Shown piece after piece: positions 6,212-57,589 of a DNA stretch of 64,000 nt. Origin of the DNA: Peltaster fructicola. Taxonomy: Eukaryota; Ascomycota; Dothideomycetes. Positions within the stretch are counted from its first letter, which is position 1. Each line of letters starts with the position of its first letter. Made by a program: the position numbers and the translations under genes. The notes below the pieces were generated by a model. That model worked only from the letters and a program-made list of their open reading frames with translations, was not told the origin of the DNA and did no database searches. Where the stretch lies: positions 2,480,001 to 2,544,000 of the forward strand of contig CP051139.1 of NCBI GenBank assembly GCA_001592805.2. The letters run 5' to 3'.

Positions 6212-7987
6212 ATGGACCAACTATATCATTCACTTGATATAGTTGACGCTAGCACTTACAGGGACTTCGTTGCAGCTGAGCACAACACTCCTTCGAACGT
6301 CATCCGCGATGGCATGCGATTCAGTCTGGCATTCATCATTACATATCAGTACAGTCTTCTTGCACTTACTGCGCTCTTCACTGCTAGACATTGTCTAAAT
6401 GTACTGAGCAGGACCCGACGAACTCTGTGTCACCAAGTCGATGTATCTATCGAGTCACGAATCCAGCATGGGGATCTCCCTGCGGATACAGAGCATCTCA
6501 AGTCTGCCGTACTTGATGAACACACCTCGCTCTTGGTGGGAAGGAGGCAGAAAAGGCCAGCCTTATACCAACGTACCGCACGACGTTGGAGATCGTTGTT
6601 CATACATCATCCGACCTGGCTTAGGGAACTACCTGGCAACGACATCAGCTTCTTCGTCTTCCTCCTTGCTGGCCTGAACCTCTTCTATGCGCTCTACAAC
6701 GCTCCGCTATCCAGACCTGTGATCTACGTGTTCGCAGATCGGGTAGGTCTTCTGTTCGTCGCCAACCTACCCTGGCTCTATCTCCTAGGAGCCAAGAATC
6801 AGCCATTTCGATTGCTGACAGGATCGTCCTATGAAGGCTTGAACATACTACATCGTAGCCTAGGCAAATGGCTTGCAATACTTGCAGCCTTACATACCGT
6901 AGGCATGGTCATCGTCTGGTACGACTATCTGCTTCCTCGTGGTCTCGGATTGTGGTGGTATCTCACACGAAACATCATCTGGCTTGGTATCTCGGCATTG
7001 CTATGCTATGAGGTTCTGAGCCTGACCAGTCTTGTGAGCTTCCGTCAATGGTGGTACGAGATGTTTCTGGCCTGCCATATCGTATTGCAAGCCGGTGGTT
7101 TAATCTTCCTCTTCTTTCACTTTCCACGGACAAGACCATACGTACTCGTGTCTCTCAGTATCTTTCTACTGGATCGGCTTTGGTATCGTCTCACATTGAA
7201 AACGCGGTCATTCGTCACGGATCTCACCATCATGGAAGACGGGCAGACCGTCATGGTCTCTGCGTCATGGGCTCTACAGCCCTGGTCTCGAGCGTTGTCT
7301 TGGCTAGTACCACGCGATGTGCGCTATGGATGGAATGCAACAGACCATGTGTTCTTGACAGTCCCAGCCCTGTCTGGGAAGCACAAAATGCAAGCACATC
7401 CATTTACGATAGCGTCGGCTGCTCCAGCGAAGGACCACACTCATGCCTGGCTATCTCTCATCATTCGTGTTCGAGATGGTTTCACAAGGGACCTCCTTGA
7501 GCATGCGAAGCTCAACACCACAGCAACTGTTAGGCTGGACGGACCGTATGGTTCTGATCATGCCCTTGAGATGCTGCTTGTTAGTGACCTCTCAGTCGTG
7601 GTCGCAGGCGGTTCTGGCATTGCTGTAGCATTCCCGCTGATATGGGAGCTTCTACACGCTCCACGAGCACGATTGAGCGTGTGTTTGATATGGATTGTCA
7701 ACGATGCACGGCACGTCAAGTGGATAGGTTATGAGCGAATCGATGAGCTGAAGCAACTCGGTTTGAGAGTCGTCATTCCACCGCCCACAGCGAAGGCTGG
7801 TCGTCCCGACGTGCCGCAGCTGCTGAGGCAAACTCTGGTGGATCTCACGGACGGAGACTTGAATTGCAAGACCGGCCTTGTTGTATCAGGACCAGACGCT
7901 ATGAATCGTGCTGTTAGGAACACCTGCGCTCAACTGGCATGGGACGGCATGAACATCAGTGTTGCCGTGGAAGTGTTTGACTGGTAG
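6212..7987 (+). CDS. Ferric-reductase-like transmembrane flavocytochrome b
   Basis: FRE-type metalloreductase, 591 residues, no intron. It moves electrons from NADPH through FAD and two b-hemes across the membrane to reduce ferric iron or copper outside the cell. Several membrane spans fill residues 30-330; paired heme histidines lie in HRSLGKWLAILAALHTVG and in FLACHIVLQAGGLIFLFFHF. The FAD motif HPFTIAS is near residue 395, the NADPH-binding VVAGGSGIAVAF near 462, and VSGPDAM near 555; the end EVFDW is usual for the family. I chose the ATG at 6212 because the frame upstream has only non-ATG starts. Odd: an 11-bp inverted repeat begins 4 bp after this ATG. It converges on NIP1 with 146 bp between the stops. 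An NADPH oxidase is less likely given the sequence around the hemes. Confidence 0.85.
   Translation: MDQLYHSLDIVDASTYRDFVAAEHNTPSNVIRDGMRFSLAFIITYQYSLLALTALFTARHCLNVLSRTRRTLCHQVDVSIESRIQHGDLPADTEHLKSAVLDEHTSLLVGRRQKRPALYQRTARRWRSLFIHHPTWLRELPGNDISFFVFLLAGLNLFYALYNAPLSRPVIYVFADRVGLLFVANLPWLYLLGAKNQPFRLLTGSSYEGLNILHRSLGKWLAILAALHTVGMVIVWYDYLLPRGLGLWWYLTRNIIWLGISALLCYEVLSLTSLVSFRQWWYEMFLACHIVLQAGGLIFLFFHFPRTRPYVLVSLSIFLLDRLWYRLTLKTRSFVTDLTIMEDGQTVMVSASWALQPWSRALSWLVPRDVRYGWNATDHVFLTVPALSGKHKMQAHPFTIASAAPAKDHTHAWLSLIIRVRDGFTRDLLEHAKLNTTATVRLDGPYGSDHALEMLLVSDLSVVVAGGSGIAVAFPLIWELLHAPRARLSVCLIWIVNDARHVKWIGYERIDELKQLGLRVVIPPPTAKAGRPDVPQLLRQTLVDLTDGDLNCKTGLVVSGPDAMNRAVRNTCAQLAWDGMNISVAVEVFDW
6218..6245. 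repeat. Perfect inverted repeat just after a start codon
   Basis: Arms 6218-6228 (CAACTATATCA) and 6235-6245 (TGATATAGTTG) are exact reverse complements around the 6-base loop TTCACT. The repeat lies inside codons 3-12 of the ferric-reductase-like gene, 4 to 33 nt after its ATG. In mRNA it would make an 11-bp hairpin. Whether it acts is unknown. Confidence 0.85.
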
Positions 7988-53986: not shown

Positions 53987-56900
53987 ATGCATATCAAGCA
54001 GATCATCATACAAGGCTTCAAAAGTTACAAGGACCAGACTGTCGTCGACCCGTTCTCACCTAAACACAACGTGATCATCGGTCGCAATGGTTCTGGCAAG
54101 TCAAACTTCTTCGCAGCGATTCGATTCGTGCTGGGCGACCAGTACACCCAGATGGGTCGCGAGGAACGAAACGCACTCCTCCATGAAGGCACGGGATCAG
54201 CAGTCATGAGTGCTTATGTCGAGATCATCTTTGACAACAGTGACGATCGCTTTCCTACGAATACTCCAGAAGTCGTTCTTCGACGGTCCATCGGTCTCAA
54301 GAAGGATGAGTACACTCTCAACCGCAAGAACACAACGAAGACGGAAGTGTTGAATCTGCTGGAAAGCGCTGGCTTCTCCCGCAGCAATCCATATTACATC
54401 GTACCCCAGGGTCGCATCACGCACATCACGAACATGAAGGATTACGAGCGTCTCAGCATGCTGAAGGAGGTTGCTGGCACGCAGGTCTACGAGCAGCGCC
54501 GCGCAGAGAGTGTGCGCATCATGCACGAAACTGAGAACTCACGACAGAAGACCGATGAGACACTCACTCACATTCGCGAACGTCTGGAAGAGCTGAAGGA
54601 AGAGACGAATGAGCTGAATGACTACTTGGCAGCTGATCGTGAGAGAAGATGTCTGGAGTATACCATCTACCACAGAGAGCAGGAGGCACTGCAAGAAGCT
54701 CTCGACCGACTTGAGGGCGAGAGAGAAGGTGGCATTGAGCAGACCGACGACAGCCAGACTCGCCTGCGAGAAGCTGAAGCACAGTTGGAAAAGCTCGAGG
54801 TCGAAGTCAGCGAGCTTCAAACAAATTTGAAGCTTCTAGCTACGGAGAAAGCACAATTCGAGGTCGACCGGAATGAGGCTGCCAAGGAGAAGGCTGCTGT
54901 AGAGTACGAGGTACAAGCACTACTCGACGGACAGCAGGCGGCTCAATCGAATCGCAAGCAGTACGCCACCGAGTTGCGTGATGTCAAGAGCAGAATCTCT
55001 GAGCGCGAAGCTGAGCTCGCCAATATACAGCCACAGTCCGAGAAAACACGCGAGCAGGCACAGACCCTACAGCAACAGATTCGAGAGGCAGAGTCGACGA
55101 GACAACTGCTTCTCTCTAAACAAGGCAGAAGCGCACGCTATCGTAGCAAACGGGAACGAGATGATGATCTTAAGCAGCAAATCACTCAAGTCTCGACGCA
55201 GCTACGCTCCCGTGAGTCTGCCACTGCCCAATATGCTCGAGAGGCGAACAAGCTTGAAGAGCAGATCCAGCAGCTCGAAGCAGAAATCGCGGTTATGCGT
55301 GATCGCCTCGACAACCGTGGCGATGAGCAGCAGACCATCTCGGCACAGACACAAAGCCTGAAGGACGAGAAGGAGAAGCTAAATGACCGTCGAAAGGGCA
55401 TCTGGCGTGAGGAAGCCAAGCTGGACTCACTGCTTGCAAATGCTCGGCAAGAAATGGATAAGGCCGAGCAATTCCTCAACAAAATGATGGATCAGAATAC
55501 TTCTCGTGGTCTTGCTGCCATGCGTCAGTATGTCCAGCAGCACAACATCCAGGGCGTGCACGGCACCGTTGGTGAGCTCGTTGAATTCTCCGACAAGTAC
55601 AAGACTGCTGTCGAAGTCACAGCTGGTGCCTCTCTGTTCCATGTCATCGTCGACACCGATGAGACAGCCACACGTCTAGTAGAACTGCTGCAGAAGGACA
55701 AAGCTGGTCGAGTGACATTCATGCCGCTGAATCGACTACATCCAAAGTCCATCGACCTTCCCTCTGGTGCTGATGCCATACCCCTGCTGGCTAGGCTAAA
55801 GTTTGATGAGCGCTACACCAAGGCATACGAGCAGATCTTCGGCAAGACCGTCATCTGTCCTGATTTGCGTGCTGCTTCTCACTATGCTCGATCGCACGGT
55901 GTAAGTGCTATCACGCCCGGTGGTGATCGATCGAACAAGAAGGGTGCGCTCAGCGGAGGTTACCACGATACCCGTAGCTCTCGTACTAATGGGCTCCGAC
56001 GAGCCAAAGCTGCCCGTGACGAGCTCGATGATCTCACAAGCCGCCAGTCTGAGCTGCAACGAGAGCGTGAAGCATTGGATCAGCAGATCACCAAATCTGT
56101 GAGCGAACTGCAAAAGATTGAGCATCGTCGTATGCAGGCTGAAGGAGGATATGCACCACTGCGCCAAGAAGCACGAAGGAAGGAGTAGGAGGTCTTCACC
56201 AAGCGCGACGAGCTGCAGCGTAAGCAGATAGCCAAGAACAACTCTGACGACAACTACGCACAGCTTCAACAGCAGCTTGATGAGTATCAAAAGGAGCTCG
56301 GCGGCGTCTTCACCAAAGCGTTGACGGACGATGAGGAACAGCAACTCAAGGTGATAAGCGAGTCTTTGCCAGCAGCACGTGAGCAGTACGCTCAAGTGAA
56401 CGGTGAAGCTACAGAATTAGAGAGTCGCAAGAAGGATATCGAGGTGGAGTTGCGTGAGAACTTGCGTCTTCGACTTGATCAACTTCGTGGCCAGGATGTC
56501 GAAGGTCATGAAGACAGTGGTGACAATGCGCGCCTGAAGGAGCGCAACAAGGACCACGACCGAGCAGTCAAGAAGCTGAAGACTTGGAATGACCGACTTC
56601 GAGAGCAGACTGATGTCATTGACCAGACGCAACAGCAGCTGCACAATCAGGAAGCTGCGCGCGCAGAACAGCAAAAGGTCGCCGAAGACATGACTCGTGC
56701 TATTGCGAATGTCCAGAAGACCTTGCAGAAGTCTGCACAGAAGAAGCGTACTGTGCAAGCCCGACTGGACGAAGTAGCCGCTTCGATACGAGCTCTAGGA
56801 GCACTGCCAGATGCCGCGTTCAATGCACCATACTCCACGATGCAGAACCAGACTGCAACTCTCCGGCTGCACAAAGCGCAAGATGCTCTCAAGAAGTTTG

Positions 56901-57589
56901 GCCACGTCAACAAGAAGGCCTTTGAGCAGTTTGCGCAGTTCAACAAGGACCGCGAAAAGCTCGAGGACACCCGTCGTGAGCTCGGCAATGGCGATGCGTC
57001 CATTCGTGCTCTCATCGAGCATCTGGACCAGCAGAAGGATGAAGCTATCGAGCGCACGTTCCGTCAGGTCAGCAAGGAGTTCGCTCGTATGTTCGAGAAG
57101 CTGGTGCCAGCAGGCAAAGGACGACTCATCATACAGCGCCGTGCCGATAATACGCCAGCAGACGATGCGAGCGATGACGAGGACCGAAACCGAAGTGGCG
57201 CCGTTGAGAACTACACTGGCGTTGGAATCAGCGTATCGTTCAACTCGAAGCATGACGAGCAACAGCGCATACAGCAGCTGTCCGGTGGACAGAAATCGCT
57301 GTGTGCACTGACACTCATCTTCGCCATCCAAGCATCAGATCCAGCGCCATTCTACCTCTTCGATGAGATCGACGCCAACCTGGACGCTCAGTACAGAACA
57401 GCTGTGGCGGATTTAATCGAAGAGAGTGCCGAGACCGGACAGTTCATTTGCACGACGTTCCGACCTGAGATGCTCAGAGTAGCAGACAAATGCTACGGTG
57501 TTAGCTCAAGCAAAAAGGCAAGCTATATCAAGCCAGTGACGACGGAGGAAGCGTTGGAGTTCGTGGAAGGACAAGTCTCAGCTAACTAA
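53987..57589 (+). CDS. SMC3: Cohesin subunit Smc3, with an in-frame TAG
   Basis: ATPase arm of cohesin, which holds sister chromatids together; normally essential. The frame runs 1201 codons including the end stop, the usual length, but codon 734 (56186-56188) is TAG between ARRKE and EVFTKRDEL. Walker A is GRNGSGKSNFFAAIRFVLG near residue 32; the N-head ends ITNMKDYERLSMLKEVAGTQVYE; coiled coil; hinge near 500-680 (GVHGTVGELVEFSDKYKTAVEVTAGASLFHVIV in the reading); second coil; C-head with the signature LSGGQKSLCALTLIFAIQ and Walker B PAPFYLFDEIDANLD. Both sides of the TAG read as good coiled coil with no gap. CAG to TAG is the simplest explanation. A GTGAGC...GTAG pair (56099-56188, 90 nt, phase 0) would remove the stop but also 29 residues of coil. 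The cause is unresolved. Confidence 0.93.

Follow-up and report, generated by a model that had tools for sequence, protein, structure and literature searches.

Peltaster fructicola and the question of an interrupted cohesin gene

SMC3 is normally essential. In the window analysed here (the whole stretch of Peltaster fructicola DNA, 64,000 nucleotides, whose numbering is used below), a complete SMC3 reading frame is nevertheless interrupted by one TAG codon. How can an essential gene carry a stop in the middle of its frame: is the TAG spliced out, edited, read through or carried only by the sequenced culture, is there another copy, or is the base itself wrong? The genome that holds the locus comprises 18,987,130 bases in 5 contigs.

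A single stop in an otherwise open frame

The frame and its parts are as follows.

53987..57589, + strand: SMC3 frame of 1200 codons with one internal TAG and a terminal TAA (frame translation, Pfam, homologs)
53987..56185, + strand: upstream part, with the N-terminal ATPase half, the first arm, the hinge and the start of the second arm (Pfam, model)
56186..56188, + strand: in-frame TAG, codon 734 (read from the sequence)
56189..57586, + strand: downstream part, conserved, with the rest of the second arm and the C-terminal ATPase half (Pfam, homologs)

Sequence and translation bear out the first-pass annotation, which had reported an otherwise intact SMC3 frame with TAG as codon 734: from the ATG at 53987 to the TAA at 57587-57589, no other stop occurs. 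Pfam families SMC_N and SMC_hinge match before the TAG and SMC_N matches after it, and with both ATPase halves, a hinge, and SMC3/sudA proteins as its best named relatives, the gene is an SMC3. A split gene with re-initiation was rejected, the first methionine after the TAG being residue 902, deep in the downstream part.

In-frame stops were counted across 264 kb of the genome (the 64-kb window and C4:2000001-2200000), where 53 same-frame pairs have at least 100 open codons on either side of a stop. A composition cut-off of 0.1 dropped 50 of the 53. Three pairs look coding in composition on both sides: SMC3, a 70-nt candidate intron, and a Ser-rich gene read off frame. The census is non-exhaustive because this cut-off loses a fair share of true coding stretches, whose scores have a 5th percentile of 0.007 and a median of 0.20. 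A TAG between two coding-like halves, as in SMC3, is more than chance would provide. The second in-frame TAG of the census (C4:2128056) was discarded as the off-frame reading of the Ser-rich gene, and no other substitution-type stop was established in the assembly sample.

Constraint on both sides of the stop

Of 5387 hits, the best 120 were taken as homologs; with the record of the species itself set aside, 119 remain. The 30 residues that end at the TAG (705-734) are ungapped in 119/119 of these listed homologs. The segment is thus not absent from homologous proteins, as the translation of an intron would be, and the earlier remark that nothing seems inserted here holds (a gap in 0/119 rows). 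Segment identity to the nearest listed relative, P0003, is 22/29, and overall identity is 855/1197. Where P0003, P0004 and P0005 agree on a residue, the P. fructicola frame departs from it at 37/418 positions upstream, 1/17 inside the segment and 12/259 downstream. Judging from these sequences, a segment that had been spliced out for long would have drifted. As constraint is kept past the TAG, the stop is either recent or not real. Column 734 holds Gln in the three nearest listed relatives.

P0003, a fungal SMC3 and the closest listed relative (71% identity), is filed under Persea americana (avocado); since the protein is fungal, that plant assembly probably holds fungal contamination.

Possible removal of the stop by splicing

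The public protein AMS68_001080 has 1170 residues and is letter-for-letter identical to the SMC3 frame, except that residues 705-734 are missing. Three features bear on this difference.

56099..56188, + strand: 90-nt segment encoding residues 705-734, excised as an intron in AMS68_001080 (comparison with the public protein)
56099..56104, + strand: GTGAGC donor of the annotated 90-nt intron, scoring under all 44 model donors
56099..56263, + strand: alternative 165-nt in-frame intron, which would remove 55 residues (score 18.21)

A real TAG could be spliced out by the 90-nt or the 165-nt intron, a recent and exitron-like one, which would shorten the SMC3 coil by 30 or 55 residues; we consider this unlikely, although it has several points in its favour. 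The segment that the first-pass annotation had proposed for removal, GTGAGC...GTAG at 56099-56188, is real and is precisely the intron of the public record: phase 0, a multiple of three in length and inside a coding exon. The annotation of the species was made with BRAKER and RNA-seq-derived evidence (PMC7181583), which favours splicing. So does the rarity of such a candidate: only at 5.4% of 766 CAG codons does an upstream in-phase donor allow a score equal to that of the 90-nt intron.

As a working intron, the proposed segment fares worse, since both its conservation and its splice signals speak against it. Splice signals were scored with a model of 44 introns from the same 264 kb, kept from 71 candidates (joined open length at least 600 nt); all were preselected by consensus motifs, so the comparison cannot rule out weak introns. 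Against this set, the annotated intron scores 11.76 bits (minimum among the 44 model introns, 17.64). Its donor and branch point lie under those of 44/44 model introns, its acceptor beats 8/44, and the distance between its best branch-point match and the 3' end is 47 nt, as against 7-27 nt in model introns. The 165-nt alternative has a CTGAC branch-point-like site near 56247 and scores just above the lowest model intron, but among 1500 random codons 4.6% also have an in-frame pair scoring at least 18.21 within 200 nt. For 97.5% of 1500 random codons there is a GT-AG pair, in frame and 40-120 nt long, that would remove the codon (one Ser-rich region was excluded from the random-codon comparison), so a gene predictor can nearly always find an intron.

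Other introns that end in TAG served as a control. Stops occur in 19/139 kinase-domain rows (5 of them TAG), in 0/9 MFS rows and in 1/20 ABC rows (a TAG). Three of the 20 rows with a stop, which are three of the 6 with TAG, were read; the 17 others (three TAG) may be introns or lesions. In L062, L063 and L064 the TAG ends a phase-0 intron of 45-48 nt, a multiple of three, with the branch point 11 nt before the end, the inserted residues being judged by eye. The donor GTGAGC also starts a good intron in L063. In L064 an 84-nt pair scores 20.89, against 18.53 for the preferred 45-nt intron with its branch point 11 nt from the end. Short TAG-ending introns are therefore normal in this genome, which keeps the splicing explanation alive; to judge from their sequences, these control introns look different from the SMC3 segment. 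In a six-frame search, each of the three shows up as one in-frame stop.

Loss of the segment is also predicted to disturb the protein. For the N-terminal half, AlphaFold predicts a single helix over residues 666-732 and gives blocks within 431-460 pLDDT values of 90, 86 and 91. In a model of the public protein, shorter by 30 residues, that helix is interrupted at 702-704, and pLDDT in these blocks is down to 57, 40 and 51. We read this drop as an opposite-arm stretch that would be losing its partner. The comparison is supporting evidence only, because the models differ in length (N-terminal half against full-length deletion) and used 47 sequences each; the heads were poorly predicted. Taken with the conservation and the splice signals, it leads us to doubt the annotated 90-nt intron, which appears implausible and little supported.

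A possible mutation of the sequenced culture

The TAG might instead be real but peculiar to the culture that was sequenced: a mutation carried by some of its nuclei, or one that is recent and poorly tolerated, and in either case atypical of the species. We hold this to be distinctly unlikely. An isolated stop in an otherwise constrained gene is what such a mutation would leave; against it, uniform loss of SMC3 should be lethal, and the culture is described as purified by single-spore isolation (PMC7181583).

Possible correction of the mRNA by editing

A-to-I editing of the transcript, turning UAG into UGG, could also rescue a real TAG; we regard this as very improbable. Equally improbable is the consequence that vegetative cells of this Dothideomycete depend on UAG-to-UGG editing to make an essential cohesin subunit. 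Fungal editing is described as preferring U at -1 and hairpin loops and as often hitting UAG (PMC11156358). The candidate A in the SMC3 UAG has U at -1. With 10-40 nt of flank, 78-98% of sampled folds place it in a hairpin loop; with 60 or 100 nt, the fraction is 0. Three of the 14 UAG sites in SMC3, that of codon 734 included, reach a hairpin-loop fraction of 0.78 at a flank of 30. Shuffled versions of the 61-nt sequence around the TAG fold more stably than the sequence itself (z 1.79), a point against editing, and the local hairpin is ambiguous. Column 734 accepts 17 residue types, a point for editing, but Trp is found there in 0/119 listed homologs. In filamentous ascomycetes, A-to-I editing is described as mainly sexual-stage (PMC11156358, PMC11169179). 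Rare hyphal editing of premature TAG is reported in Fusarium, with hyphal levels averaging <5.5% (PMC11169179), too low for an essential protein. In the available text of the review PMC11156358 no Dothideomycete is named, the word occurring 0 times.

Read-through, suppression and gene copies

Read-through of a real TAG, or its suppression by a tRNA, has a slimmer chance still. The next codon, GAG, is not known to give a strong read-through context. ARAGORN calls one gene, L044 (G000:C1:3016380-3016510), tRNA-Stop with anticodon UUA, which taken literally might decode UAA and perhaps also UAG. The variable arm of L044 is long, in a layout that is presumably like that of yeast tRNA-Leu, and placing the gene in the standard layout yields Leu(UAA). 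We judge that its sequence suggests a tRNA-Leu(UAA) whose anticodon ARAGORN called with a register slip of one base; no other tRNA-Leu(UAA) is present among the 26 typed tRNAs. Anticodon CUA occurs in 0/26 tRNAs typed by ARAGORN, an incomplete set because 44 tRNA genes are reported for the species (PMC7181583). Two further weak tRNA hits yielded no tRNA, and a third fell below the family cut-off. TAG also ends other frames: the one at 7985-7987 closes another open frame of at least 100 codons, and 17/48 long open frames in the 264 kb end at TAG, SMC3 included, although some of these ends may be intronic. TAG is thus in use as a stop, and general reassignment, already thought improbable in the first-pass annotation, is disfavoured.

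An intron is called in 18/26 of the typed tRNA genes (L034-L059, ARAGORN), a large fraction given that the genome is described as compact.

That the locus is a decaying copy, with the second functional SMC3 once suggested lying elsewhere, is scarcely credible: the stop itself is the sole point in favour, a whole-genome protein search gives 7 other places, all partial and 21-40% identical, a DNA search of the genome matches this locus only, and the assembly is described as telomere to telomere (PMC7181583).

A probable base error in the consensus

If the assembly contains residual errors, they are expected to surface as lesions in other conserved genes. Such lesions were found, as frame changes rather than substitutions. 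A census of frame changes in a 200-kb sample, a noisy one, gave 17 junctions, 10 with a joining intron scoring at least 17.7; of the other 7, three were tested against homologs and four were judged by eye, with Pfam run on both pieces of two. A CSF1-like gene changes frame at about L019:4185-4190 (G000:C4:2104185-2104190), where 44/52 homologs matching both frames are continuous; from these alignments, an assembly error in a conserved gene is probable. An RBM26-like gene on the minus strand probably changes frame near its second junction (L018:4097-4127), where 114 homologs match both frames, with 25-50 nt as the commonest spacing, and no joining intron scored better than one of 199 nt (16.7). 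At its first junction, near L018:4955-4985, only 3 homologs match both frames. The CSF1-like and RBM26-like lesions suggest residual assembly errors; being frame changes, not substitutions, they support a base error in SMC3 only indirectly. Against such an error stands the reported polishing with ~256x Illumina coverage, Pilon twice and Nanopolish once (PMC7181583), the Illumina reads being given as from the same isolate, LNHT1506; this favours the TAG base being right. The RNA-seq-derived evidence behind the annotation likewise counts against an invented intron. Apparent frame changes that lack a good joining intron were also seen in an acetyltransferase-like gene (L013:5777-5876, +) and a WLM-domain gene (L013:4093-4151, -).

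On the consensus sequence, we infer that the SMC3 TAG is probably, if by no means certainly, a one-base consensus error, and that the 90-nt intron was invented by gene prediction. This explanation is favoured because only one SMC3 was found in the genome, and because the gene is normally essential and is constrained on both sides of the TAG. The living fungus would carry an ordinary, uninterrupted SMC3, and the TAG would have arisen as a single-base consensus error of the assembly. The predictor, meeting a stop in the frame, would then have inserted an intron, leaving the public protein short by 30 residues. DNA reads would be expected to show no stop, and the annotated junction to be without RNA support.

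If the TAG is an error, the public P. fructicola SMC3 wrongly lacks 30 residues of a conserved coiled coil, and similar scrutiny of further genes in the assembly is warranted. Should the TAG be real, an essential cohesin gene would depend on one codon being spliced out, edited or read through, a clean case open to direct testing.

Comparison with known systems

Exitrons are introns inside coding exons that hold no in-frame stop, so that the retained form codes. The 90-nt segment shares with them a length that is a multiple of three and a position inside a coding exon; it differs in having a TAG at its 3' end, and its signals are weak. A literature search on exitrons returned no paper on fungal exitrons, judged by title.

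The Fusarium gene CHE1 offers a closer parallel (PMC11169179). As in SMC3, an in-frame TAG lies in a conserved gene and a small intron has been annotated over it, in CHE1 in some species. According to that report, automated annotation had wrongly placed the CHE1 intron over the premature TAG, which gives a precedent for an invented intron. In CHE1, however, editing is shown and the TAG is conserved in relatives, whereas the SMC3 TAG is read from DNA and the three nearest relatives have Gln.

Consensus errors described for long-read assemblies (PMC12007338, PMC8812927) likewise produce frameshifts or premature stops that make conserved genes look broken. Errors in homopolymer length are given as the commonest (PMC8812927), whereas the SMC3 case would be a substitution in an Illumina-polished assembly.
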